A program made the position numbers and the translations under genes. Under the pieces are notes generated by a model that did not search any database, was not told the origin of the DNA, and saw only the letters and a program-made list of their open reading frames with translations. A stretch of 34,741 bases of DNA from an uncultured Oscillospiraceae bacterium (lineage in GTDB: Bacteria > Bacillota > Clostridia > Oscillospirales > Oscillospiraceae): positions 1 through 34,741 of the forward strand of contig CANQKA010000014.1 of NCBI GenBank assembly GCA_947624395.1, read 5' to 3'. Shown piece after piece: positions 4,600-23,742 of this stretch; position 1 is the first letter of the stretch, and each line of letters starts with the position of its first letter.

Positions 4600-6294
4600 T
4601 CACTTTATCCCCTTTTCAAATTCCTCCGCCAGCGCCAACGTATCCTCCACGCTGAACTCCGGCATAGGCGCGGCCAGGGTGAACAGCAGCTCTTTGTCCG
4701 TGTCGTACCATGTCAGATAGGTCCCTGTAGCGCCCACCCGTCCGCCGAAGTGGTCCGGCACGGCGTAGTACCCCTCATAGCCGCCCACGGTGCACGTTTC
4801 CATGTCCATTCCGGCGGTCAGCGGCCAGGTGGTGGACGTGACCCGCCGGTTGGCAAATGCCGTGGCGTTTTGCAGCACGGTCCTGTCCGCGTCGCCCCAG
4901 TACCGCTCGTAGGTCAGGCTCGCCCACTTGTCCGTGTCATAGCTCTCGCCGCTGTCCGGCCGGTAGTAGTTGAGGCTCACGCTGTCATAATAGTCCGCCG
5001 GCCCCGGCGTGGGCGCGGTACTGTCCAGGCCCGCCCGGTACAGCGCCTGGTCCTCCACCGCGTTCACATAGGACTGGGTGAACGCCCACCCCGCCGGCAG
5101 CAGACCGTCCAGGGAATAGTCCCCCAGATCGTCGTAAACGCCCTGTATCGGCTCGGTGATGTCCCGGTAAGAGCTTGGGTTATCCCGCATGTTCTGCTCC
5201 ATGCCCGCGGCCACGTTTTCCGCCACGGCGGGCGCGTTGATCTGGTCCAGGGCAATAAAATCGATGCTGTCCGCCACGGCCTCCAGCTCCGCCAGGGTCA
5301 GGCCCTCCCGCCGGCCCGGATAGAACCAGAAGGTCACGTGGCAGTTTTCCATGTCCGCGAACAGGAACGAGCCCACTTGCTCCAACGCGATGTCCACCTC
5401 CGTACCGGAACTGGTGGTGTACGTCTCAAAGTCCGCCAGAGCCGGGTCCCCGCCCAGGACCAGAAAATCCGTGAGAGTACCCCGGACCGCCCGGATCACG
5501 TTGAAGCCCAGCGCCTCGCCGCCATCCGGCCGGGCCATGCTCAGGCCGCTGGCCTCAAAGCTTCCGTCGTCGTAGACCTGGAAGGTGTGCCGTTCGTCCT
5601 CGTCCTCCGCCGTTGGATAGAAGCTGTCCAAAGCCAGGGCGTCCAAAAATTCCCGCTCCGTGTCATATAACGCCAAGCGCTCCAAAAGCCGCAGGCCGTA
5701 CTTTTCCGCGATCTCGTCCAGCTTGTCCGCCAGCACCCCATAGCCCACGCCATAGATCAGCCGGTGGGGGTCCGAGTAGTCCAGCAGGTCCCGTGCGTCC
5801 AGGGGCACGTCGCTGAAGTAAAACTCCGCCCACTCCTTCTGGGCCTCGTATTCCCGATTCTTGCCCATGGAGCTGTAATAGGTCCCCTTCTCGCCGGACC
5901 AGGCGGCGTACTGCGCCGCGCCTGTGGGAACAGGCTCAACGGGCTGGTCCATGACCTCGGCGTCGGCATTGCCGCCCACGGCGCTGTACTGGACGATGGC
6001 GCTGCCGTCCTGGGCCGTCATGAAGCGTCCGCCCTCCAGCACCCGGTCGTCCATGGTCCGCTGGTACACCGCGTAGGCCGTGCCGGACAAGAGCGCCGCG
6101 AACGCCGCCGCCAGCAGCACGGTCCGCAGCACGTGCCGGGACTTTTTCTCTCGGACAGGGCTATGCCCCCGCAGAGCGTCTATCTTTGCCGCCGTCATGG
6201 ATTTTATCTTCTCCGGGTCCACGCGCCCCCGGTCGGGCATGTCGTATTCCTCATCCCGATACCGGGCCATCACATCACTGAACCGCACGATCAT
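4600..6294 (-). CDS. Membrane-anchored protein, probable anti-sigma factor of the adjacent ECF sigma
   Basis: 564 aa. A cytoplasmic N-terminus of about 54 residues (MIVRFSDVMARYRDEEYDM...) is followed by one transmembrane segment at about 55-77 (VLRTVLLAAAFAALLSGTAYA) and a large outside domain with no motif I recognise. The shape (short cytoplasmic part, one membrane span, large sensor domain) and the overlap with the sigma factor gene argue for an anti-sigma or sigma-coupled sensor of the DUF4179/DUF4367 type. The ATG at 6294 is set by GGAGG 8 nt upstream, inside the sigma gene; the two genes overlap by 20 bp, so their translation is coupled. The outer domain is acidic and rich in Tyr and Trp. 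Function is inferred from context; no binding partner or signal can be named. Confidence 0.7.
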   Translation of the reverse strand: MIVRFSDVMARYRDEEYDMPDRGRVDPEKIKSMTAAKIDALRGHSPVREKKSRHVLRTVLLAAAFAALLSGTAYAVYQRTMDDRVLEGGRFMTAQDGSAIVQYSAVGGNADAEVMDQPVEPVPTGAAQYAAWSGEKGTYYSSMGKNREYEAQKEWAEFYFSDVPLDARDLLDYSDPHRLIYGVGYGVLADKLDEIAEKYGLRLLERLALYDTEREFLDALALDSFYPTAEDEDERHTFQVYDDGSFEASGLSMARPDGGEALGFNVIRAVRGTLTDFLVLGGDPALADFETYTTSSGTEVDIALEQVGSFLFADMENCHVTFWFYPGRREGLTLAELEAVADSIDFIALDQINAPAVAENVAAGMEQNMRDNPSSYRDITEPIQGVYDDLGDYSLDGLLPAGWAFTQSYVNAVEDQALYRAGLDSTAPTPGPADYYDSVSLNYYRPDSGESYDTDKWASLTYERYWGDADRTVLQNATAFANRRVTSTTWPLTAGMDMETCTVGGYEGYYAVPDHFGGRVGATGTYLTWYDTDKELLFTLAAPMPEFSVEDTLALAEEFEKGIK

Positions 6295-6832
6295 CGCTCA
6301 TACCTCCTTCCGTCAATGCCTCCCGGAGCCTGTCACGGCCCCGCTTCAACCGCTGTCGCACCGCCGCCGGACTCATGCGCAGCAGCCCCGCGATCTGCCG
6401 GGCCGTCTGGCAGTAGTAATAGTGCCGGACGAATATCTCCCTGTCCGGCTCGTCCATGGCCTGCACCGCGGCCCGCACGGCCTCGTCCCGCTCCCGGTCC
6501 GCCGCCAGCGCCTCCGGGTCCGCCCCCGGCAGGGCCAGCACGTCTTCCTCCAGCTCCAGGTCCGCCTGACTTTGCCGCAGCCGGTTGATGGCCCGCGTCC
6601 GGGCGATCTGGCCCAGATACCCCTTCACCCGGCCAACTTTGGCCCTGTCCCGGTTTTGCCACAGCGCCACGAACACGTCCGACGTGACCTCCTCCACGTC
6701 CTGGGCGGTCATGGTCTGACCCAGAATATTCCATGCGATGGCGGCCACATAGGCCGTGTACCTGTCGATGAACCATTCCAGGCCCTCCGGTCTGTCCGCC
6801 CGGAGCATGGCCAGGGCATGCGCTTCCGTCAC
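6275..6832 (-). CDS. ECF-type RNA polymerase sigma factor
   Basis: 185 aa from the GTG at 6832, chosen because a perfect AAGGAGGTGA stands just upstream; the frame is open for 13 more codons. Region 2 is recognisable in the helix WFIDRYTAYVAAIAWNILG and in DVEEVTSDVFVALWQNRD (about 45-62), followed by IARTRAINRLR, which contacts the -10. Region 4 is MDEPDREIFVRHYYYCQTARQIAGLL, then a helix-turn-helix with MSPAAVRQRLKRGRDRLRE, which contacts the -35. ECF factors of this type answer envelope or environmental stress and are held by a membrane anti-sigma factor, here the overlapping downstream gene. Confidence 0.92.
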   Translation of the reverse strand: MTEAHALAMLRADRPEGLEWFIDRYTAYVAAIAWNILGQTMTAQDVEEVTSDVFVALWQNRDRAKVGRVKGYLGQIARTRAINRLRQSQADLELEEDVLALPGADPEALAADRERDEAVRAAVQAMDEPDREIFVRHYYYCQTARQIAGLLRMSPAAVRQRLKRGRDRLREALTEGGMSDDRAVQ

Positions 6833-6860
6833 GGCGCTCACCTCCTTGCCCTCGTCACCT

Positions 6861-6893
6861 ATTATAAACACAGCCCAGCAGAAAGTGTGACAA
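6861..6893 (-). promoter_or_regulatory. Possible promoter of the sigma/anti-sigma operon
   Basis: On the minus strand a perfect TATAAT (6861-6866) lies 28 bp ahead of the GTG start. The best upstream hexamer, TTGTCA (6888-6893), is 21 bp away, too far for a standard housekeeping promoter, so the -35 assignment is doubtful. Confidence 0.35.
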
Positions 6894-11943: not shown

Positions 11944-13548
11944 TTATCGTTTTTTCTTTGTTGACGCCGCGCTCCGCAGCGTATCCATGTCCAGCATATC
12001 CAGCGACCCGCCCAGGTCCGTCAGCGCCATTTGCAGGCAGAACAGGTCCGACGATGTGGCGATGAACTCCAATATCACGTTCAGCGCCGTCATCACGGCC
12101 ACCGCCTCCATGGGTATGCCAAGCTGGGTAAACAGCAGCGTGTAGCACGTCAGCGCCGACCCCGGCACCGGCGGGCACGCGATAGCCAGCATCACGCAGA
12201 TGAACAGCGCCGTCAACAGCCACGCCGGCGTGATAGCCACGCCGTAGATCTCCGCCATGCTCATGCTGGCGACCAGAAACAGCACCACCGCGCCGGGCAT
12301 GTATATGACCTGCCCCAAGGGGATGCCGAAGCGGGTGATCTTCTCGTGTATGCCCAGCTGCTTTTCGCAGCACTCCTGGTTGGTGGGAAAGGCCGCCACG
12401 GAGGACGCCGTGCTCAGGCCGATGAGGAAGGTGGGCATGGTCTTTTTCAGCAGCGTCACGGGCCCGACCTTCCACCGGACACACACCAGCGCTAAGCTGC
12501 ACGCCATCATTACCGCCGTGCCCAGAACTATGACGGGGATGAGCTTATAGGACCGGGCCAAAAGCCGGAACCCGTCCCCCAGAAACATCTTGAAGACGCT
12601 GCCGAACACGAACACGGGGACCAGCGAGCTTATCGCCTCCATGATGAGCTGGACCACGTAGTTGGACTGCTCCACGAACGTGGCCGCCACCGAGACCTTT
12701 TCCCCCAACAGCAGCAGCGCTATCCCGATGAGCACCGCCACGAAGATGATCTGCAGGGGATTGCCCTCCGTGAAGGGCGTGAAGAAGTTGGCCGGCACGA
12801 TATCCAGCACCATGTCCATCAGTTCCGACGGGTCGAATGTCTGGCCGCCTCCCGCGGCCATGGGGAAGAACGGCACCACAGCCGCTCCCGCAATGACCCC
12901 CAACACGACGGTGAACAAAATGAGCTTGGTGATCATCCGCTTGCCTATCCGGCCGAAGGAGGCCACGTCCCCCATGCAGCAGATGCCCCATGTCACCGAC
13001 AGGAATATCATGGGTCCGGATATGGCGGTGAGCAGGCCCATGAACGTGTTGAAAACAGGCGTCACCAGCTTGTCCGTCAGCACCAGCCGCACCGCCTCCG
13101 GCAAAAGCCTGCACAGATAGCCCAGCACCGCCGCCAGCACCAGGGCGATGGCCAAAGAGACCATGAGGGACCTTTTTTTCCGCTTTGGGGTGAACAGGAC
13201 CCGGTTCGTACCGTCCTTATAATGCCACAGCGGCGCCAGGCCCATCTGGGCCATCATGCCCGTCAGTGCCCCGCTGTCCGGCCCGTCCTGCTCCGCCAGC
13301 GGGTCCAGGGACGGACCGGTCAGGGAAAGCTCCACCCGCGGGGCGCGAAACCGCCACCGGCAGCGCAGAGTAAACTCCCCCGCCGTTCCCTCGTCCCGGT
13401 AGCGCAGCAGCGCTTCCTCCAGGGCCAGCCGGACCCGCAGGGCGTCCTTTCGTTCCACCTTGGCGGCCGTGAGAAATTCGTAGGCCGCCTCCCCGGCCTC
13501 GTCGATGCCGGGACCTGTCAGGTCATATCTTTTTTCCACGTTCTCCAT
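11944..13548 (-). CDS. SDF-family carrier with N-terminal pseudo-HATPase (RsbW-like) domain, copy 1
   Basis: 534 aa. Residues 1-120 resemble the HATPase_c_2 fold of anti-sigma kinases: a helix LRVRLALEEALLRYRD (38-52) in the N-box place, a G1-like loop LTGPSLDPL (76-84) and a last strand DGTNRVLF (112-119). The invariant Asn of the N-box is Arg49 and the G1 Asp is missing, so ATP hydrolysis is unlikely. Residues about 128-510 are a sodium:dicarboxylate symporter (SDF/DAACS) domain with HP1 GLSTASSVAAFPTN (377-390). The NMDGT cation motif reads YMPGA (416-420), and the positions of GltPh D390, R397, N401 and D405 read N490, A497, D501 and L505. Substrate and coupling ion are therefore open. 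ATG 13548 has GAGG 8 nt upstream, 14 bp after the ABC fusion gene. Confidence 0.82.
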   Translation of the reverse strand: MENVEKRYDLTGPGIDEAGEAAYEFLTAAKVERKDALRVRLALEEALLRYRDEGTAGEFTLRCRWRFRAPRVELSLTGPSLDPLAEQDGPDSGALTGMMAQMGLAPLWHYKDGTNRVLFTPKRKKRSLMVSLAIALVLAAVLGYLCRLLPEAVRLVLTDKLVTPVFNTFMGLLTAISGPMIFLSVTWGICCMGDVASFGRIGKRMITKLILFTVVLGVIAGAAVVPFFPMAAGGGQTFDPSELMDMVLDIVPANFFTPFTEGNPLQIIFVAVLIGIALLLLGEKVSVAATFVEQSNYVVQLIMEAISSLVPVFVFGSVFKMFLGDGFRLLARSYKLIPVIVLGTAVMMACSLALVCVRWKVGPVTLLKKTMPTFLIGLSTASSVAAFPTNQECCEKQLGIHEKITRFGIPLGQVIYMPGAVVLFLVASMSMAEIYGVAITPAWLLTALFICVMLAIACPPVPGSALTCYTLLFTQLGIPMEAVAVMTALNVILEFIATSSDLFCLQMALTDLGGSLDMLDMDTLRSAASTKKKR

Positions 13549-13562
13549 AAGGCGTTCCTCGC

Positions 13563-16500
13563 TTAAAATACAATGGTCACCGTATTTACCCCGTCGGCGT
13601 AGGCGTGCTCGCTGCTCTTCGTCCTGCTGAGCGCCAGCGCCGCGCTCAGCTCGTCGCCCTCGGTCAGCGGGTCGAATTCCGCCCCCTCCCAGCGGATGAC
13701 GGCCTCGCACTCGCTCCCGTCCTCGCTGCAAAGGGCGTCGAAGCTCAGGCTGTTCTCCCCCACATCCGGCAGCGCGGGCAGGATGCTGGTCACGCACAGC
13801 TCCTCGAATATCTGCTGATATTTCAGCGACTGGGGCGCGCCCAGAAGCTGCTTGCGGGCAAACCGGTCGATGTCGCCCGACGCGCCGATGAAGTCGAACC
13901 CCTTGGAGTCGATGTCCAGGTGGAGCGTCTTCAGCCGGTGGACGAACGCCCGGCACCGGTCCGTCCTGGGGTGGTCGAACACCTGCTCCGGCGTACCGTC
14001 CTCGAAAATAACGCCCTCGTCCATGTAAAATACCCGCGTGGACACGTCATGGGCGAACTTCATCTCATGGGTCACGATGAGCATGGTCAGGCCCTGCTCG
14101 GCCAGACTGCGGATGACCGCCAGCACCTCGCCCACCATGGTGGGGTCCAGGGCGCTGGTGGGCTCGTCAAAGAGCACGATCTCCGGCTGCATGTTCAGGG
14201 TCCTCGCGATGGCGACGCGCTGCTTCTGCCCGCCGGACAGCTCGTCCGGGTAATTGAGCGCCTTTTCCGCCAACCCGACCTTGGTCAGCAGCCCCATGCC
14301 CCGCTCGTAAGCCTCCTGCCTTGTGCAGCCCAGCAGCTCCACCGGCCCCAGCATGATATTTTCGATCACCGTCAAATGGGCGAACAGGTTGAAGCTCTGG
14401 AACACCATACCCATGCGCTGGCGCACCGCGCCCAGCTGGGCCGGCTTCACCCCGGTCACCGGCTGGCCGAACACCTGAATATCGCCCTCTGTCGGCGTTT
14501 CCAGCCGGTTAATGCACCGCAAAAGGGTGCTCTTGCCCGTGCCGGACGGCCCGATGATGGAGATAACGTCCCCGGTATTTATCACGGCGTTCACGTCCTT
14601 TAAGGGCGTTGCGTTGGGATAGACCTTCTTCAAGTGGGATATGGTGATGACCGGCCCGCCGTTCTGGGCCGCTTTCTTTTCCTCCGGCGCCTCCCCGATG
14701 GCCACGCGCATGTCCACGCCCTTTGGCTCACGGCGACGGCGGCGGGGGTCGATCTTCCGCTCCGCCAGACCCAGCAGCGATGTCAGACACCAGGCCAGGA
14801 TGAAATACAGCACCGCCGTCAATATCAGCGGGAAGAACGCCTCGAACGTCCGGCTGCGGATAAGGTCGGTGGCCTTTGTCAGGTCCTGCACCGCGATATA
14901 GCCCACCACGGAGGTCATCTTCACCATGGAGATGAACTCGCCCTTATACACCGGCAGGATATGCCGCGCCGCCTGGGGCGCTATGATCTTTGTGAACGTC
15001 TTGACCCGGCCGAAGCCCATGGCCTGGGCGGCCTCCCACTGGCCCGCGTCCACGGCGTTTATGCCGGTCCTGATCATCTCGGACACATACACGGCGAAGT
15101 TGATGGAGAAGCCGATGATGGCCACCACCACCCCGTCCAGTCTCGCCCCGGCGAACACCACGTAGAACAGCACCATCAGCAGCACCAGCACCGGGATACC
15201 CTGGACCAGCCGGACGAACGCCGCCGTGATGCCGGAGGCGATCTTATTCCGGCTGCGGCGCACCATGCACAGCCCGAAGCCCAGCACCGTGCCGAACAGC
15301 GCCGAGAATATCGAGATGACGAACGTGACGCCCAGGCCGGATAAAATCATCTCCCACCGGTCCTCCTGGACGAAGTTCTTATAAAAGCTGTCCTTGAGCC
15401 CCTCCCAGAAGCCCTTTTCCTCCGCCTGCACTGCCACGCCCATATCCTCGGCCCGGACCATGAGCGTCATGCCGCCCACATAGTGGGTGGTGGGGAAATC
15501 GATGCTCTGCTTCCGCTCGTCGGTGATGCTCATGGCGCCGGACACGATGTCCGCCCGGCCGCTGTTCAGCATCTGGATAAGCGAGTTAAAAGTGCTCTGG
15601 GTGATCTCCAGCTTCATCCCCAGCTCCTTGGCGATGAGCGTGACCAGCTCCACCTCATAGCCCAGGGACTGGCCGTTCCCGCCCACATAGCTCATGGGCT
15701 CCAGCGTGGAGTCGTGGGCGTACCGCAGCGTGCCGTTGGGCGCGTCGTACTCGCCCACGTCGATGGTTTTTTTGCTGTCGTCGGCGCTGAGCCATTTCTC
15801 CCGCAGCGCGTCCAGGGTGCCATCCTCCGTATACCGCTCGATGATGGCGCTTATTTCATCCGTCAGGGGGCTGTCCTTTTGCAGGCCCAGGCCGTAGGAA
15901 TCCGGCGCCACCGGCTCGGGAAACACCGCCAGATCGGGCTGTCTCGCCGCCGCCAGCTGGGCCACGGGCATATCGTGGGCCACGGCGTCCAGCGCGCCCG
16001 ACTGCAGCGCCAGCAGCGAATCGGAGGCGTCGTCGTAATACTTAAACTCGCACCCGCTGGCCACCTGGCTCACAAGATCGTCGGAAATACTGCCCGACAT
16101 GACGCCTATGGTGGCGCCGTCAAAGTCCTGAAACGTCCGGAATCGAATCTGACCCTGGCTCTGGCCCCGGTTGGCCACCACGGCCACCACGCCGCCGGTG
16201 TAATCCGACTCGGCGAAGTTCACGCTTTCCGCCCGTTCCTCCGTCACCGTCAGGCCGGTGGCCGACACGTCATATGTCCCCGTGGCAAGGCCCGCGAAAA
16301 TGGACGAGACCTCCGTGCCGGTCACTTCCAGCCCGTAGCCGTACGCCTTGCAGAAGCGGGCCATGATATCCACGTCGTAGCCCACGATCTGCCCGTTAAG
16401 AATATAGCAGAAGGGCGCCACGTCCGTTTTTACCGCCATGTGGACGACGCCGTTATCCGCCGGGAAGGCGGTCCAGTCCTCCACCACCTTTTTGCTCTCG

Positions 16501-16976
16501 TCCGCGCCCAGCCAGATGCTGTCTATCTCTTTCAGGGTCCCGTCGGCCTTGATCTGCGCCAAAAATTCGTTATACTCGTCCCGCAGCGCCGCGCCCCGGT
16601 CGGTCTTGGCAAAGGCGGCGGCGTAGCTCTCCTCCACCAGCACGTCGGGCAGATAGGTCACCGCCTGGTTTTCTGCGCACAGGGTCCGGGCGATGGGCTC
16701 GTCGATCAAAAACCCGGCGACCTTTCCCTGCTCCACCGCCAGCGCCAGATCCGGCACCCGGTCGTAATACTGCTTGTCCGCGTCCTTGATAAGGTTGTCG
16801 GTATGTACGTCAAAGCTGGAACCGGTCATCACGCCGATGGCCTGTCCGTCCAGCTGCCGGATATCGGTTATCTGCTCGCTTTCTTCCCCGCTGTCGTTTT
16901 TCGCGCAGCCGCTCAGAAGCAGACTGATAAGCAGCACCGGCACGCACAGGGTGCGCCAGAACTTTTTATTTTTCAT
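13563..16976 (-). CDS. Single-chain polar amino acid ABC transporter: lipoprotein SBP modules, permease, ATPase and C-terminal pseudo-HATPase
   Basis: About 1137 aa (ATG 16976, or the adjacent ATG 16979; residue numbers from the latter). Signal peptide with lipobox LLSGC (Cys25). Residues 40-165 match only the second lobe of an SBP_bac_3 binding protein, 176-400 a whole one ([20 protein letters not shown]), and 416-510 only the first lobe. Residues 542-745 are a HisM/GlnP-type permease ([23 protein letters not shown] coupling loop). The ATPase follows: Walker [10 protein letters not shown] (810-818), signature LSGGQKQR (914-921), Walker B IVLFDEP (934-940), switch His971. Residues about 1050-1138 resemble the HATPase modules of the flanking SDF proteins ([27 protein letters not shown]). 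It overlaps the upstream SDF gene by 1-4 bp. Amino acid import is inferred from the family. Confidence 0.85.
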
Positions 16977-18562
16977 CATGACACGCTCCTTTTCAGATCA
17001 TCTTTATCAAGCATCCCAACGCTCTCCGTCGCCAGCGTCACCTGCATCTGCAAACAGGCCACGCCGGCGGCCGTCTCAAAAAAGTCCAGGATCCCGTTGG
17101 CGGCGATCGCCAGGGCCAGCGCCTCCGCGGGGATGCCAAGCTGGGCAAACAGGACCGTGAACACGGAAAGGGCCCCGCCGGGTATGGGCGGCAGCGCCAT
17201 GGACAGAAGCCCTACCGTCAGCACCGACATGACGAGAAACAGCGGCGTGATGGGAATACCATAGGATTCCGCCATGCACAGGGCCATGATAAAAAGTCCG
17301 ACCACAAAACCCGGCTTATACAGCACCTGCCCCAGGGGGATGGCAAAATCCGATATCTTTTTCGGGATGCCCAGCTCTTTTACGCACGTCTCCAGGTTCG
17401 TGGCCAGAGCCGCGGCCGAGGATGCCGTCGTCAGGGCGATGAGATAGGCCGGCAGCGCTTTTTTCAGCAGCTGACCGGGGCTGACCTTCAGCCGGAAGCC
17501 CGCCCGGAAGATATAAAACAGCGGCAGGATGACGCACGCCGGTATCGCCAGCGCGAACACCTTGAGCAGGCTGGAAACGCCGCTGCCAAAATCGGATATG
17601 ACCAGGTTGAACAGGCTCAAAAACACGAACAGCGGGATGATCTTCCCCAGCGCGCCCATCAAAAACTGCACCGCGTCGTACAGCTGCATCATGGTATTCT
17701 GGGCCGCCGACACCCGCTCGCCCAATATGAGCAGGGCCAGCCCCAGGCAGATGCCCAAAAATACCAGCTGCAGGGCGTTGCCGTTCATAAACGGTGAGAT
17801 GATATCCGCCGGCACGATGTCCAGCACCATCTGATAGATCCCCGAATAATTGCCGGAGAGCTTATCGCCCGCCGAGGCCACCGGGAACACCAGACTTCCC
17901 GCCAGGGCCATGGCCGCCGTCAGGATAAACGTCCCCCCGAGCATGCGCAGGATAAGTTTTTTGCCCACCTTGCCCACCACCGCCAGATCGCCGATGCTCA
18001 CGATGGAGCAGCAGATAGCCAAAAACACCAGCGGGGAGGACACCGCCCGCAGCGCCCCCACGATCATGTTGAACAGGGGTTCCGTGACCGACAGCGCGCC
18101 CGACTGTATGACCGGGAACCGCCTCGCGGCCGCGCCCAGAAACACCGCCAGGAACACCGCCGCCAGCAGCACGGCCACCTGGCCCATGGACGACCTTTTC
18201 TTTCTGGGGTTGCAGACCAGGCAGTTTTTCCCGTTCTTATAGGCGTATGTAAACGAAAGGCCCGCCTGGGACAGCATATGGCTGCTCAGCACCAGCGCGT
18301 CGTTGTCCCACGCGTCCGTGGCCGGCCCCTCCACGCTTACGCGCAAAAAGGACCGCCCGAATTTCCGCCCGCATTCCACCCGGACCGGCGCGCCTTCCAT
18401 CGTTTCCAGCCACACGCCCAGTATCTCTTCCAGCGACAGGCGCAGCCGTATAACGTCTTTCCTGTCCGTCCCCGCCTCCGTCAGCGCCTGCACGCATATT
18501 TCGGATACCGCGTCGATCGTCAGCGCCGTCAGCCTGAAGTTTTCATTTCGGCTGCTCACCAT
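16976..18562 (-). CDS. SDF-family carrier with N-terminal pseudo-HATPase (RsbW-like) domain, copy 2
   Basis: 528 aa, a paralogue of the carrier at 11944-13548 with the same two-part plan. Residues 1-120 are HATPase-like: [16 protein letters not shown] (38-53), EGPATDAW (78-85) and a closing NGKNCLVC (110-117). The N-box Asn position is Val50 and the G1 acid is absent. The membrane part (about 126-510) has HP1 [14 protein letters not shown] (376-389); the NMDGT motif reads YKPGF, and the GltPh positions D390/R397/N401/D405 read N489/E496/G500/L504. GGGAGG lies about 10 nt ahead of the ATG at 18562. It ends in the 4-bp overlap ATGA with the ABC fusion gene. Both carriers share the motif losses, so these are likely an adapted subfamily rather than decay. 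Confidence 0.82.
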
Positions 18563-18666
18563 ACCCGTTTACCTCCCGTCAAGCCCGTGTTCGTCAGATG
18601 ATGCCGTGATCTTTTGCCAGCGCCCTGATGCTCCTGTCGTAAGTCGCCTCCGCCTCTTTCTCCCTC

Positions 18667-18963
18667 TCACTCAATGGTCAGGATGTCCGAAAAACCGGTG
18701 ACCTCGAACACCTCCATGACCGTCTCGTTCACGTTTTTGATCTTCATCTCGCCCTGTCTGTTCATGATTTTCTGCATGGCCAGCAGCACCCGCAGGCCGG
18801 CGGACGATATATAGTCCAGCCTGGCAAGATCCAGCACCAGGCCCGTCAGCCCCTCCACGCTGCCTCTGAGCTCCTGCTCCAGCTTCGGGGCGGTGGTGGT
18901 GTCCAATCTCCCCTCCAGCGCCACCGTCAAAGTCGTTCCGTCCAAAGTCATTTGCGTGTTCAT
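18667..18963 (-). CDS. STAS-domain protein, SpoIIAA/RsbV-like anti-sigma factor antagonist
   Basis: 98 aa, all one STAS domain. Pattern: LTVALEGRLDTTTAPKLEQE (about 12-31), GLVLDLARLDYISSAGLRVL (41-60), then MKIKNVNETVMEVFEVTGF. Ser54 in SSAGLR is in the place of the serine that anti-sigma kinases phosphorylate in SpoIIAA and RsbV. The ATG at 18963 has GGAGG with 7-nt spacing; in-frame codons further upstream lack a site. No sigma factor or kinase of the SpoIIAB type and no PP2C phosphatase is encoded nearby. Instead, the next three genes in the operon carry RsbW-like modules fused to transporters, which makes those modules its likely partners (inference). Confidence 0.9.
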   Translation of the reverse strand: MNTQMTLDGTTLTVALEGRLDTTTAPKLEQELRGSVEGLTGLVLDLARLDYISSAGLRVLLAMQKIMNRQGEMKIKNVNETVMEVFEVTGFSDILTIE

Positions 18964-18994: not shown

Positions 18995-19714
18995 TCATGC
19001 CTCATCCCCTGCGGGATGCTTCAAATACTCCACAAACTCGTCTGTCGTCATGGTGAACGCGATCTCCGTCCGCGACGGGTCCCGCACCAGAAATTCCGTC
19101 AGCCCGTACTCCTGCGCTCCGCCCCAGTCGTATGTATAGCCCAGTCTCGTCCAGGGGTAATCGCTCTCAAAATAGGAATACAGGATGTTTGCGTCAAACC
19201 ACTCTTTCCACGCGCCCGTGACCAGGCTGTAGTCGTTTTCCATCTGTTTCGTCACGTCGGTGACGAACGCCGGCCGCACCACGTCCTCTGGCGACACCCA
19301 GAACGCGGTGAATCTTGTGTACCCCTCGTCCGCGTGTACGCCCAGAAGCTGGGCGAACCGGAGCGTCCAGTCCGTCACACCTTCTCCGTTTTCCTTAAAC
19401 CAGCTCTCCATCTCGCCCAGGGAAGTCGCCCATATATCGCCGTATTCCCCGATTTGTGTTCCGGGCTCGCACCCGTCCGGGTAATCGTGCCACGTCAGCA
19501 GCAGGACCCTTTCACCGGCGTCGTCCCAGACCGTCCGGCCGTCCTCCGCCGTCAGGGTGACCAGCGGACGAATTTCCTCATCCTCGGCAAACACCGCGTC
19601 GGTCATCGCCGCTTGCCACCGGCCGTCGTCCGCGGCCTCCGCTCTCTGCCCGCCGATCGTGAAAACCGCCATGACCAGAAGCGCGGTCATCCAAAACCCG
19701 CCCCGTTTCTTCAC
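18995..19714 (-). CDS. Secreted protein of unknown function, first gene of the transporter operon
   Basis: 239 aa. A signal peptide at about 1-27 (KKRGGFWMTALLVMAVF, then GGQRAEAADD with an AEA cleavage site) exports it; there is no lipobox cysteine. The mature part has aromatic segments such as VLLLTWHDYPDGCEPG, EMESWFKENGEGVTDWTLR and YTRFTAFWVSPEDVVRPA, with no motif I can name. Only two cysteines appear overall, or fewer in some regions, so it is not a disulfide-rich effector. The start is GTG at 19714, with AGGTG about 9 nt ahead. It is the first gene after the LytTR-type operator at 19803-19832, and the STAS gene begins 31 bp after its stop. A role in sensing or binding the operon's substrate outside the cell is conceivable but unsupported. 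Confidence 0.65.
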   Translation of the reverse strand: MKKRGGFWMTALLVMAVFTIGGQRAEAADDGRWQAAMTDAVFAEDEEIRPLVTLTAEDGRTVWDDAGERVLLLTWHDYPDGCEPGTQIGEYGDIWATSLGEMESWFKENGEGVTDWTLRFAQLLGVHADEGYTRFTAFWVSPEDVVRPAFVTDVTKQMENDYSLVTGAWKEWFDANILYSYFESDYPWTRLGYTYDWGGAQEYGLTEFLVRDPSRTEIAFTMTTDEFVEYLKHPAGDEA

Positions 19715-19903: not shown

Positions 19904-20155
19904 TTAAGGTAGGGGTCCTTCGACCGGGTTCGTATCATCTCCCCATCCGCTAAAAACGCATTGACAGCGGCGCTTCTTAAAGTCATCATCTCCCGCGCCG
20001 CCGAGGAAGCAGCCGCAGGGACTATCGGTCCCGCCGCCTTCTCCGCCGCCGGCAAACTCGCACATGCAGTGGTCTCCCCCGGCTACCGCGTCCAGCTCGT
20101 CCAGGTCCAGCTCTCTCGCATGGCCCAGAACTTCGTTTTTCTTCTCTTCCGACAT
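19904..20155 (-). CDS. RiPP precursor peptide with double-glycine leader and three CxC core repeats
   Basis: 83 aa, preceded by AGGAGG 8 nt ahead of the ATG at 20155. The leader is acidic and helical and ends in LDLDELDAVAGG (residues 16-27), a typical double-glycine cleavage motif of Nif11/bacteriocin-like leaders. The core then shows CMC (30-32), CGC (47-49) and CQC (64-66), exactly 17 residues apart, each followed by F or L two residues later and glycines at repeat positions 7 and 9. All six cysteines are in these motifs. It lies 29 bp downstream of the radical SAM/SPASM gene, which makes thioether (sactipeptide or ranthipeptide) cross-linking the likely modification. No peptidase-containing exporter is in the window. 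The product may be an antimicrobial or a pheromone for the neighbouring two-component system. Confidence 0.85.
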   Translation of the reverse strand: MSEEKKNEVLGHARELDLDELDAVAGGDHCMCEFAGGGEGGGTDSPCGCFLGGAGDDDFKKRRCQCVFSGWGDDTNPVEGPLP

Positions 20156-20184: not shown

Positions 20185-21576
20185 TTACTGCTTTTCCGGC
20201 AGTTTGATCTTCTCCATGACCCGGTCGATCTTGTCGATCCAGCCGCCTTTGAACAGGACGCAGGCCGCCATATCCCGGCCCATGATGTCCTCCGGGGTGG
20301 TATCCAGCGCGCTGGCCCTGCACCCGCCCAGGCAGTACCCGGCGTGCTCGCAGTCCCGGCATTCCGGATTGTGGGCCAGCACCTCCGAGGCTTTGGTCTC
20401 GATGAGGCGCATGTAAGACGAATCGGTGATGCACTGCTTCAATCCCAGCTCCGTTATGAGCGGATAGTTCTCCTGGATGGACATGCCGGACAAAGACATG
20501 CAGGGCAGCGCCCGACCCTCCGCGGAGATGTACATCACCATGCGGGCGTGGCCGCAGACGCACTCCCGAGCCGGGTCCTGGCACCAGGTTTTTTGCAGGG
20601 GGATGTACCAATGCCGGGGGTCGTCGGGCGAGGCGCTGAAAAATCCGCCCAGCTGCAGCACCAGGGGCATGCCGTCCTCGTAATACTGGGGAATGTAATC
20701 CAGGTAAAGCTGGAAAAGCTCGTCCATGTCGATGGAGGGGCCGTACCCGCCCTCCTTCCACGCGCCCACGTCCGAGATGGGGTTGGTCTTCAAACTGCCG
20801 CAGCCCACGCTTGCCAGGAACCGTATAGATTCCCGCAGCGTGTGCTTGTTCCGCTCGTGGATGCACATCTCCGCGCCGGTGGGAAAGCCGTGGTCCCGGC
20901 AGCGCAAAAACGCGTCCGTCACATACTTTTCCGCGCCGGGGACGCCCCGCAGCCAGTCGTGCCAGCCCACGCCGTCAAAGCTCATGTTGAACTCGGGGCA
21001 GATGCCCCGGTCCTCCAGCTTTTGCAAGAGCTCGTCCGTCACCAGACGGCCGTTGGAGTAGATGGTGGCAATGTTCACGCCGCCGTCCAGCAGCGTGTCC
21101 ACGATGTCGAAAAAGTCCGCCCGCACCAGCGGCTCTCCGCCGGTCAATGTCACGTTCGCGATGCCGCAGTCCACGATCTGTCTGGCGATGCTCATCGCCG
21201 TCTCGTGGTCCAGTTCTCCGTACTTGGCGTCCGGGGCGGACATATAGCAGTGCTTGCACCGGTAGTTGCACCGCCCCGTCACGGACCAGTGGGCCGTGCG
21301 GATATACCGGTTGTCATAGAACCGGTAAAGCTGCTCGTCCTTCAGCTTTGTCCCCGGCTCGCAGGGGCGTATGACCCCCTCCTCTTCCAGCTTTTTCAGC
21401 GCCTTCTGCCGCTGCTCAGACGCGCCGGCCATATCTGTCTGGCCGTCCATGTCCAGCAGCAGCTCCATATCCTCTTTTTTATAAAACGCGGCCCGCCCGC
21501 TGCGCCGGTCCAGCAGCGCGAACGGCAGCTTCTTCCAGCCCCGCAGGGCATATCGCTCGTTCAGTATGTAATACAC
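20185..21576 (-). CDS. Radical SAM/SPASM peptide maturase
   Basis: 463 aa. Residues 1-90 look like a PqqD-type peptide-recognition (RRE) winged helix (FALLDRRSGRAAFYKKED; ALKKLEEEGVIRPCEPG). The radical SAM motif is CNYRCKHC (Cys103, Cys107, Cys110), followed by NVTLTGGEPLVRADFFDI, which binds SAM. A SPASM domain occupies the C-terminal third, with cysteines in QDPARECVCGHAR, ALPCMSLSG, ECRDCEHAGYCLGGCRA and AACVLF, enough for two extra iron-sulfur clusters. Enzymes of this build form thioether or carbon-carbon links in ribosomal peptides. The start is GTG at 21576, with AAGGAG 8 nt ahead. Unusually, the maturase precedes its substrate gene. A LytTR-type operator lies 67 bp upstream. Confidence 0.92.
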   Translation of the reverse strand: MYYILNERYALRGWKKLPFALLDRRSGRAAFYKKEDMELLLDMDGQTDMAGASEQRQKALKKLEEEGVIRPCEPGTKLKDEQLYRFYDNRYIRTAHWSVTGRCNYRCKHCYMSAPDAKYGELDHETAMSIARQIVDCGIANVTLTGGEPLVRADFFDIVDTLLDGGVNIATIYSNGRLVTDELLQKLEDRGICPEFNMSFDGVGWHDWLRGVPGAEKYVTDAFLRCRDHGFPTGAEMCIHERNKHTLRESIRFLASVGCGSLKTNPISDVGAWKEGGYGPSIDMDELFQLYLDYIPQYYEDGMPLVLQLGGFFSASPDDPRHWYIPLQKTWCQDPARECVCGHARMVMYISAEGRALPCMSLSGMSIQENYPLITELGLKQCITDSSYMRLIETKASEVLAHNPECRDCEHAGYCLGGCRASALDTTPEDIMGRDMAACVLFKGGWIDKIDRVMEKIKLPEKQ

Positions 21577-21685: not shown

Positions 21686-21706
21686 AAAAGCCGCCCGAAG
21701 GCGGCT
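21686..21706 (-). terminator. Terminator overlapping the kinase stop codon
   Basis: GCCGCC-ttcg-GGCGGC on the minus strand is followed by TTTTGCTTTT. The stem begins within the TGA stop codon region of the histidine kinase gene, so the regulatory genes end here and the maturase operon starts from its own promoter. Confidence 0.85.
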
Positions 21707-22986
21707 CATGGATTCAAAATCACGCAGGCGGTACAAACGCCCTCCTGCACCGTATAATTGATCTCCCCGTGATACTTGCCGGAGGAGGAGACGATGCTGT
21801 CGATGCCCACGCCTCTGGCGGCGGGCAGCCCGTTTTCCAGCTCCAGCCACGCCCCGCAGGGATTGCTGACGGCGATCACCGTCTTGTTCCCCACGTTTCG
21901 GATATGGGCCTGGATAGGCCCGGCGCTTTTCCGCGCCACGCAGGCGTTCAGCGCGTTTTCCAGCAGGTTAGCCAGTATGGCCACGAAATCCACGTCGGCC
22001 ACCGCCGACCGCGCCGGCGTGTCCGCCTGGGCGATATACTCCACGCCCGCCTCCTTCGCCTTCCCCGCGTAAGAGCTCAGTATGCCGTTGACCGTCACGT
22101 TCGGGCACCATGCGGGAAAGCTCTCCGTGGCCGCCTGTCTCTGCCCCAGATAGGCCAATATCCCCTCTGTATTGCCCTCACGGGCCATGGCCGCGATCTG
22201 CTCGTCGTGGTGGCGCAGGTCGTGGCGGACCCGACGGTTTTCCTGCTCTGCCTTTCTCGCGTTTTCCACGTAGGCCGTCAGATACTCCACGTTTTGCTTC
22301 ACCAGCTCGTCCCTTGCCTCCCGGCGCATCTGATAGATATTGCTGACGATCAGGATGCTTGCCATGCCAAAGGAGCACACCAGCAGCGAGAACAGCACCA
22401 GCGTATTGGGGTTGATGGCGTTATCCGCGCTGATACGGGACAGCACCGCCACGAACGCGAAAAAATAGATCATGGACACGACGCTGAGCGATATCCAGTT
22501 TTTTGTCCGCGTCCCGCTGATCTCCCGTATGGCCGGCCTGCCAAATTTGTTATAGGCCAACAGGATGGCAAAGCTGATGACGCCGTAGATAACGCCCCGC
22601 ACAAAATACACGAACGTTTCCGACCTGCCCGCCACAAAGGCGTAGCCCCCCAGAAAGGACACGGACAGCGAGATGCAGAACACGCAGCCGTATGTGATCC
22701 AGAGATAGCACTTCTTCCAAAACCCGTCTGCTGACACGTCGTTATAAACGCCCCAAAAGTACAGATAGGACAGCGTCAGCACGATGGGCAGCCTCCACGG
22801 CTTTGCCAGACAGAAAAACCCGAAGCAGCAGCTCAGAAACAGGAACACCCCCGCCGACCCCCACAGCATCGCCGTCTTTTTCGCCGGGTATTTCCTCTCC
22901 TGCAGCAAAAGCCCCGCCGTCAGGTGCGTCGCGAAAAACAGCAGGCTGACGCAAAGGGCTATCACAATGATCTGTATCGTGCCCAT
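21706..22986 (-). CDS. AgrC-like sensor histidine kinase (GHKL type)
   Basis: 426 aa. Residues 1-215 contain about six hydrophobic segments (for example IQIIVIALCVSLLFFA, LPIVLTLSYLYFWGVY and TLVLFSLLVCSFGMA), the polytopic peptide-sensing half typical of AgrC/ComD kinases. A helical linker follows. The phosphoacceptor motif is RRVRHDLRHH (His255), the N-box is ANLLENALNA (339-348) and the G-box is RGVGIDSIV (391-399), the shortened form usual in this class. It starts at the ATG sharing TGATG with the regulator stop (1-bp overlap), so the pair is translated together. The likely ligand is a secreted peptide, plausibly the modified product of the gene at 19904-20155 (inference). Confidence 0.9.
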   Translation of the reverse strand: MGTIQIIVIALCVSLLFFATHLTAGLLLQERKYPAKKTAMLWGSAGVFLFLSCCFGFFCLAKPWRLPIVLTLSYLYFWGVYNDVSADGFWKKCYLWITYGCVFCISLSVSFLGGYAFVAGRSETFVYFVRGVIYGVISFAILLAYNKFGRPAIREISGTRTKNWISLSVVSMIYFFAFVAVLSRISADNAINPNTLVLFSLLVCSFGMASILIVSNIYQMRREARDELVKQNVEYLTAYVENARKAEQENRRVRHDLRHHDEQIAAMAREGNTEGILAYLGQRQAATESFPAWCPNVTVNGILSSYAGKAKEAGVEYIAQADTPARSAVADVDFVAILANLLENALNACVARKSAGPIQAHIRNVGNKTVIAVSNPCGAWLELENGLPAARGVGIDSIVSSSGKYHGEINYTVQEGVCTACVILNP

Positions 22987-23711
22987 CAGTTTCTCGCCTC
23001 ATTCAGGTAAAAGTCGAAATACGCCTGCTTTATCTCCCCCCTGCGCCGCTTTGGCACCGGGATGAGCGTCCCGTCGTCCATCACCAGGTCCGACCCGGAA
23101 AAGCAGCGCACGTGGTTCAGGTTGACGATGAAGGAGCTGCCGCACGCCGTCATGCTCTGGTGGTCCTCAATACTTTCCTGCATCTGCGTTGGCAGCGACC
23201 ACACGGAGAGCTTTTGCCCGGAGACCAGCGCCACTTCCCGCCGCTTGTCCTTTGTCTCGATATACAAAATATCCTCCAGCGCGATACGGTGTACCTTTCT
23301 CTCGCTGCGGAGCAGTATCCACGTCCTCTGCTCCCGCCTGGCCACGACCCGTTCCAGGGCCCCGTCAAGCTGCTCCTGGGTATAGGGCTTGCAGATATAG
23401 TCCGCCGCGTGGATGGAAAAGGCGTCCACCGCGTAATCCGGGCTGGTCGTCAGGAAGATGATATCGGTATTCTCGCTGAGCCGAAGAATGTCCCGCGCCA
23501 GATCTGTTCCCAGCATACCGGGCATACAGATATCCAGTATCGCAATGTCAGGCGCGCCTGTTCTGTCGATGGCTTCCAGCATTTCGATGGCGGACGAATA
23601 CACGTCAAATTCCACGCCGTGCTCGCCATGTGCGGCCGCGTAGACGCCCAGATCGTCCGCTATCTTTTTTCTCTCGACCGCCTCGTCGTCACAAACCGAT
23701 ATTTTCAGCAC
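22986..23711 (-). CDS. LytTR-family response regulator (AgrA-like)
   Basis: 241 aa from the GTG at 23711. The receiver domain (1-120) has acidic CDDE (7-10), the phosphoacceptor Asp60 in IAILDICMPG, switch TTS (88-90) and Lys108 in ICKPYT. The LytTR DNA-binding domain (about 128-238) includes IALEDILYIETKDKRREV, then FIVNLNHVRCFSGSDLVMDD and IPVPKRRRGEIKQAYFDF. LytTR proteins bind paired 9-bp direct repeats two helical turns apart, and two such sites occur in the window. The GTG is chosen because GGAAG is correctly spaced and because an upstream ATG (23738) lies ahead of the predicted transcription start of the promoter at 23743-23772. It is co-transcribed with the kinase. Confidence 0.92.
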   Translation of the reverse strand: MLKISVCDDEAVERKKIADDLGVYAAAHGEHGVEFDVYSSAIEMLEAIDRTGAPDIAILDICMPGMLGTDLARDILRLSENTDIIFLTTSPDYAVDAFSIHAADYICKPYTQEQLDGALERVVARREQRTWILLRSERKVHRIALEDILYIETKDKRREVALVSGQKLSVWSLPTQMQESIEDHQSMTACGSSFIVNLNHVRCFSGSDLVMDDGTLIPVPKRRRGEIKQAYFDFYLNEARN

Positions 23712-23742
23712 TGTCCCGCTTCCTTTCTCTGCATACAAAGAC

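Follow-up and report, generated by a model that had tools for sequence, protein, structure and literature searches.

RsbW-like pseudokinase modules fused to transporters beside a STAS protein in gut Clostridia: a candidate partner-switching system with transport as its output

The window, that is, the whole stretch of 34,741 nucleotides that was analysed, comes from an uncultured Oscillospiraceae bacterium. It holds on its minus strand four genes in the order STAS, SDF1, ABC, and SDF2. Their spacing is operon-like, with a 104-base gap between STAS and SDF1, 4 bases shared by the SDF1 and ABC genes, and an SDF2 start 14 bases past the ABC stop; ORFs are longest-ORF calls, and gaps and starts are therefore rough. 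The features are as follows.

18667..18963, minus strand: STAS protein of 98 amino acids, RsbV/SpoIIAA-like (PF01740, TIGR00377; alignment to RsbV, 6m36)
16976..18562, minus strand: SDF1, an SDF-family membrane protein with an N-terminal pseudo-RsbW module (Pfam, relatives)
18200..18562, minus strand: pseudo-RsbW module of SDF1, with Val50 in place of the N-box Asn (module alignment)
13563..16979, minus strand: single-chain polar amino acid-type ABC importer (SBP domains, permease, ATPase) with a C-terminal pseudo-RsbW module
13566..13913, minus strand: the C-terminal pseudo-RsbW module of the ABC protein
11944..13548, minus strand: SDF2, an SDF-family membrane protein with an N-terminal pseudo-RsbW module (Pfam)
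13180..13548, minus strand: pseudo-RsbW module of SDF2, with Arg38, Arg40, Glu44, and Glu45 in helix 2 and Arg49 replacing the N-box Asn

Pfam assigned STAS, SDF (PF00375), and ABC domains in the four proteins, and its scan gave no domain over the ~120 N-terminal residues of each SDF protein or the ~110 C-terminal residues of the ABC protein. Neither an RsbW-like kinase gene nor a PP2C phosphatase gene was found in the window.

Several other genes were noticed beside the run. A 239-aa protein (window 18995-19714) has an N-terminal signal-like stretch, identified by sight, and no Pfam match; it was matched in 12 of the 184 loci searched, one being the window's own genome and the others including L209, L212, L162, and L086. 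Just upstream, a Cys-rich 83-aa peptide (19904-20155) adjoins a radical SAM gene (20185-21576), forming a RiPP-like pair. The peptide leader is bacteriocin-like (PF10439, E 0.005, below the cut-off), and beyond the window's own genome the peptide was matched only in the near relative L043/L093. A GHKL-like kinase (21706-22986) and a LytTR-like regulator (22986-23738), families assigned by sight, were matched in 31 and 39 of the 184 loci searched, respectively, some of these loci overlapping.

The first-pass annotation had described HATPase_c_2-like domains in the two SDF carriers and the single-chain ABC protein, N-terminal in the former and C-terminal in the latter, and models and alignment confirmed both points. 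The model of the SDF2 module reached a pLDDT of 89.2 and a pTM of 0.82. For the SDF2 and ABC modules (pLDDT 89-90), the best matches in Foldseek and VIA were anti-sigma kinases of the RsbW/SpoIIAB type, so that the structure prediction proposed as a check returned an RsbW-like fold for both modules folded and no other fold. VIA ranked other GHKL families below RsbW/SpoIIAB for the modules, which does not by itself exclude them. Matches by sequence profile were faint: the SDF2 module scored 14.8 bits against Pfam HATPase_c_2, under the threshold of 27.4, the window ABC module had no HATPase_c_2 match in Pfam, and a PDB sequence search with the SDF module profile gave 0 matches at E<=1. On the models, we assign the modules of SDF1, SDF2, and the ABC protein to the RsbW/SpoIIAB-type (HATPase_c_2) fold, that of SDF1 by homology to the two folded modules, with which it forms a row in the same alignment. 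A chance resemblance to RsbW was considered and rejected, as fold, profile, and neighbourhood evidence all agree.

We aligned jointly 36 SDF modules, 24 ABC modules, 5 MATE modules (a shallow set), and 10 kinases. The N-box Asn and the G1 Asp are absent from all three window modules, as the annotation had stated. Of the 10 kinases, 9 have the G1 Asp, as do 3 of the 5 MATE modules and none of the 36 SDF or 24 ABC modules; the N-box Asn occurs in 10/10 kinases, 7/36 SDF, 2/5 MATE, and 0/24 ABC modules. ABC modules have lost the G2 glycines, and SDF modules do not conserve them, with a single Gly of SDF2 left in alignment; the GGxG pattern was not found in the window modules. By alignment, then, the window modules depart from an active RsbW-type serine kinase at the N-box Asn, the G1 Asp, and the G2 glycines.

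Helix 2 is conserved. Its Glu44 and Glu45 map by alignment to RsbW Ser48 and Glu49. Glu44 is found in 36/36 SDF modules and the next position is Glu or Asp in 34/36, while both equivalents are Glu in every ABC (24/24) and MATE (5/5) module. Ranked by conservation among the 123 positions of the SDF module, Glu44 is 3rd, Arg38 11th, Glu45 13th, Arg40 29th, and the N-box position 100th. In the available part of the RsbV-RsbW crystal structure report, RsbW Lys44 and Ser48 bond Tyr53 of RsbV, Glu49 bonds its phospho-site Ser56, and Asp42 bonds Arg84 and Arg87 (PMC7340262); these residue numbers were carried over to the modules and the STAS protein through the alignment. The alignment shows the modules as predicted pseudokinases that keep the STAS-facing positions of helix 2.

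The STAS protein had been called SpoIIAA/RsbV-like with its serine retained, and this was confirmed. Besides matching PF01740 and TIGR00377, it aligns to RsbV (6m36) over the full length, Asp21, Tyr51, and Ser54 corresponding to RsbV Asp23, Tyr53, and Ser56. Ser54, the phospho-Ser equivalent, is kept in 55/55 distinct STAS proteins from the window and related loci. According to the alignment, Asp21, Tyr51, and Glu84 sit at RsbW-contacting positions of RsbV. Glu84 aligns with RsbV Arg87, and of the 55 distinct sequences 54 have Glu and one has Asp at this position; the SpoIIAA of the same genome has Lys there, and its SpoIIAB has Asp at the RsbW Asp42 position (by sight). The latter position, Arg38 in the modules, is Arg in 31, Lys in 1, and acidic in 0 of the 36 SDF modules, Lys or Arg in 14 and acidic in 0 of the 24 ABC modules, and Gln in 7 and Lys in 3 of the 10 kinases of these loci; the 5 MATE modules do not have Arg38 in common and show no pattern at that position. 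The charge contact between RsbW and RsbV looks, by alignment, reversed here, such that module Arg38 would face STAS Glu84. Because the MATE modules do not share this Arg and the kinases carry Gln or Lys, the pair is well marked only in SDF modules, with ABC modules showing it in part. The reversal predicts one specific contact and a means of separating the circuit from the sporulation SpoIIAA/SpoIIAB pair.

In a sample of the order, fused SDF proteins were found at E<=1e-40 in 12 of 394 genomes, at 17 places, the match beginning at query residue 1-11 in 16 and at residue 23 in one. A scan of genome contigs yielded 168 relatives and 76 loci. Fused loci belong mainly to Lachnospiraceae and Oscillospiraceae MAGs, many gut-derived, and isolates carrying fused SDF include Blautia schinkii DSM 10518, Sporofaciens musculi, and Petralouisia muris. 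A plasmid tblastn with SDF returned 33 records, all weak matches, none of which spanned 80% of the query. We counted neighbours at 74 of the 76 loci, L113 and L155 being left out as they have no intact fused ORF. The STAS neighbour that the annotation expected in related genomes was present at 34 of the 74 fused loci (at one solely as a fusion) and absent from the contig stretch around the fused SDF at 40. A SpoIIE-type PP2C gene was found at 23, a kinase-like gene at 17 (7 of these fused to PP2C), an ABC gene with a module at 38, and a MATE fusion at 4; the counts of 17 and 38 are strict, MATE and fragment ORFs being excluded (looser counts, 18 and 41). At 38 of the 74, none of STAS, PP2C, or kinase was found in the contig stretch searched. 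In Blautia schinkii DSM 10518 (L152), SDF, STAS, kinase-like, ABC, STAS-fusion, and MATE genes lie within ~11 kb.

Around 20 non-fused SDF genes taken as controls, STAS, PP2C, kinase, ABC-module, and MATE-fusion genes were found at 0/20. Nineteen of the controls are from the window's genus and 1 from another genus of the family, and flanks ran up to 8 kb, often shorter, with both flanks >=3 kb in only 11/20; among fused loci in that flank size class, STAS lay within 3 kb in 20/50. For non-redundant fused loci, the window included, the STAS count was 17/31. These counts come from loci and genomes that are not independent, with many incomplete MAGs and home-made HMMs iterated on the same loci. 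At another locus, in another family, an NRPS-like protein (L053:7576-11766) with condensation, AMP-binding, carrier, and reductase-type domains adjoins the STAS and fused SDF genes.

We searched for unlinked STAS genes in 20 genomes, corresponding to half of the 40 STAS-less loci. The STAS family was found elsewhere in 18 of the 20, 16 of these at >125 bits, and 2/20 gave no STAS family match, several of the 20 being incomplete MAGs. The survey of co-occurrence that the annotation had proposed supports its claim: in the order sample, the STAS family is present in 11/12 genomes with the SDF fusion vs 70/382 without (Fisher p 1.6e-7, kinship ignored), at a cut-off of 1e-32 chosen after inspection of the unlinked-STAS results, and with the SDF and STAS surveys assumed to cover one and the same set of 394 genomes, as their totals are equal and genome labels recur in both.

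The occurrence of the STAS family without the SDF fusion in 70 genomes of the order is a counterpoint to our main reading, as are the fused loci with no partner gene nearby, the lack of a kinase and a phosphatase in the window, and the N-box Asn retained in 7 SDF and 2 MATE modules. We took the best-scoring STAS-centred loci from 20 of these 70 genomes and found PP2C at 17, a MATE protein with a C-terminal HATPase at 7 (split over two ORFs in L208), and an ABC fusion at 3. Pfam gave MatE plus HATPase_c_2 in 2/2 MATE fusions scanned (L213 and L217). The 96 loci (76 + 20) hold 55 single-domain STAS genes; on the same strand and within 150 bases, 21 have a fused transporter gene, 17 a PP2C or kinase gene (two of them being also near a fused transporter), and 16 no system gene.

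A possibility is that the modules merely dimerise or cluster the transporters, the STAS neighbour serving another role. The RsbW dimer does form through helix 1 and strand 1, according to the available part of its structure report (PMC7340262). Such a role would leave unexplained the conservation of the STAS-facing positions of helix 2, the association of the STAS family with the SDF fusion, and the recurrence of this STAS family next to ABC and MATE transporters that carry fused modules, and we regard it as very improbable.

Contig C8 of the window's own genome carries a STAS gene and a STAS fusion, and it also encodes a kinase whose motifs are intact, a SpoIIE-type phosphatase, and a MATE-HATPase protein; the MATE and phosphotransferase parts were identified by sight. 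This indicated that the kinase and the phosphatase missing from the window exist in the same genome. The arrangement of partner switching, a kinase and a PP2C phosphatase beside STAS, was thus found in part of the related loci and on C8. Together with the MATE fusions, these genes lend further support to the partner-switching reading of the first-pass annotation, as do the conserved docking face of the modules and its apparently reversed charge. Nine phosphatases were scanned, of which 1 has dCache + HAMP and 2 have 5TM-5TMR_LYT, all over the cut-off; owing to these Cache and 5TM sensor domains, outside signals are a plausible input.

Some related loci hold further variants. A STAS domain is fused to an aminoglycoside-phosphotransferase-like kinase at L060:9312-10493 (by sight), and Pfam gave a STAS-APH-HATPase triple fusion at L217:12451-14040. 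At L217, L221, L222, L223, and L226, proteins of ~200 aa (a longer ORF in L226) that resemble the module helices adjoin STAS; the four scanned had no Pfam match. ABC exporters of the C39-peptidase type stand beside phosphatase, kinase, and STAS genes at L060, L210, L224, and L225 (by sight), an arrangement like that of systems for peptide export.

Partner switching is best known as a route to free sigma factors. The modules could be anti-sigma domains that are tethered to the membrane and keep a sigma factor sequestered, as in classical partner switching, and their RsbW/SpoIIAB fold would suit that role. On C8, the STAS gene has an ECF-like sigma gene 52 bases upstream of it, which counts against a sigma-free reading, and a sigma-factor-like ORF is found ~5 kb from the operon (window 6275-6871), and also in L093. 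A recurrent sigma gene was not found, however: a home-made model detected sigma-like genes in only 5/101 sources, which partly overlap, two of the five finds being the same gene in near-identical genomes, and in 2/20 STAS-centred loci. This search covers genes in the loci and does not exclude unlinked sigma factors. In addition, none of the 36 SDF and 24 ABC modules carries an acidic residue where RsbW has Asp42. Sequestration of a sigma factor by the modules is, in our judgement, the least probable of the explanations considered.

The SDF cores themselves are unusual. They belong to the same family as the DctA/GltP-type symporters (PF00375), from which they differ in that the NMDG motif is found in 0/102 fused SDF proteins and an Arg equivalent to Arg397 in 1/102. 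In GltPh, NMDGT and Arg397 are the canonical cation and substrate residues. Among the non-fused controls, NMDGT was present in 17/20 and Arg at the Arg397 position in 17/20; L092, a distant relative, retains NMDGT. The fused proteins thus lack the NMDGT/Arg397 signature of an SDF Na+/dicarboxylate symporter, and cores devoid of these residues possibly perform no transport at all. Judging from these positions, they may have other substrates or may be receptors.

The latter option would make the transporters inputs: the SDF proteins, and perhaps the ABC proteins, would be receptors whose ligand changes the STAS held by the modules, feeding STAS to the kinase and to another output. The motif counts do argue against ordinary Na+/aspartate symport, and Pseudomonas CbrA is described, in the available parts of two reports, as a transporter-kinase transceptor (PMC7096432, PMC13022988). 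Yet the separate phosphatase, with a Cache or 5TM sensor in 3/9 scanned, already offers an input, Pfam places the ABC and MATE partners in ordinary families of transporters, and no recurrent sigma gene was found, though GHKL/LytTR-like pairs recur. We consider a receptor role of this kind unlikely.

We favour instead, as the probable explanation, a partner-switching system with transporters, and not a sigma factor, as its output. An outside signal would activate the phosphatase; dephosphorylated STAS would then dock on the pseudo-RsbW modules of the SDF and ABC transporters and, elsewhere, of MATE transporters; and docked STAS would alter the activity or assembly of the transporter. Phosphorylation of STAS by the kinase would release it from the modules. 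Since STAS would dock on several fused transporters, one STAS protein would set several at once. The docking step, which we infer from the fold, the parts, and the co-occurrence, is likely. That STAS controls transport, in whichever direction, is only somewhat probable, because the fused SDF cores have lost NMDG and nearly always the substrate Arg. The full proposal, a sigma-free relay of gut Clostridia in which one STAS protein would control SDF, ABC, and MATE transporters through their modules, insulated from the sporulation SpoIIAA/SpoIIAB pair by the reversed charge, has in our view slightly better than an even chance of being correct.

RsbU-RsbW-RsbV and SpoIIE-SpoIIAB-SpoIIAA comprise the same PP2C phosphatase, HATPase kinase, and STAS protein with a conserved Ser. 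Here, in contrast, extra RsbW-type copies with a degenerate nucleotide site are fused to membrane transporters, no recurrent sigma factor was found, and the acid/base docking pair looks reversed for the SDF modules. In the available part of its report, MlaB is a STAS protein bound to the ABC ATPase MlaF, phosphorylation being raised as a possibility (PMC7367683). MlaB, too, is a STAS protein that stands alone and acts on a transporter, but it binds the ABC ATPase domain itself, whereas the transporters here carry a distinct RsbW-like module, and some of the loci have kinase and phosphatase genes close by. SulP/SLC26 proteins also tie STAS domains to transporters; as far as the available text of a review goes (PMC8256260), their STAS domain is built in, whereas in the present system STAS is a protein of its own and the fused part is the module that it presumably binds. 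The same text gives stand-alone STAS proteins roles in gene regulation. CbrA and CrbS (SLC5 + histidine kinase) likewise hold a transporter and a GHKL-type ATPase domain in one chain; the available parts of the sources present them as histidine kinases of two-component systems, whereas degenerate RsbW-type modules and a STAS neighbour are found here. Among the matches listed in the open-licence literature, the available text describes no RsbW-type modules fused to SDF, ABC, or MATE transporters.

Collectively, the parts are known from RsbU/W/V, and the RsbW-type docking modules on transporters are the new element. If the proposal is true, the same protein switch would work on membrane transport itself, after translation, and would reach several families of transporters at once. 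Domains left unannotated on the transporters of gut bacteria would have an explanation, and degenerate RsbW-like domains a use. STAS control of transporters could then be tested on the complete set of parts and on the contact pair predicted here.
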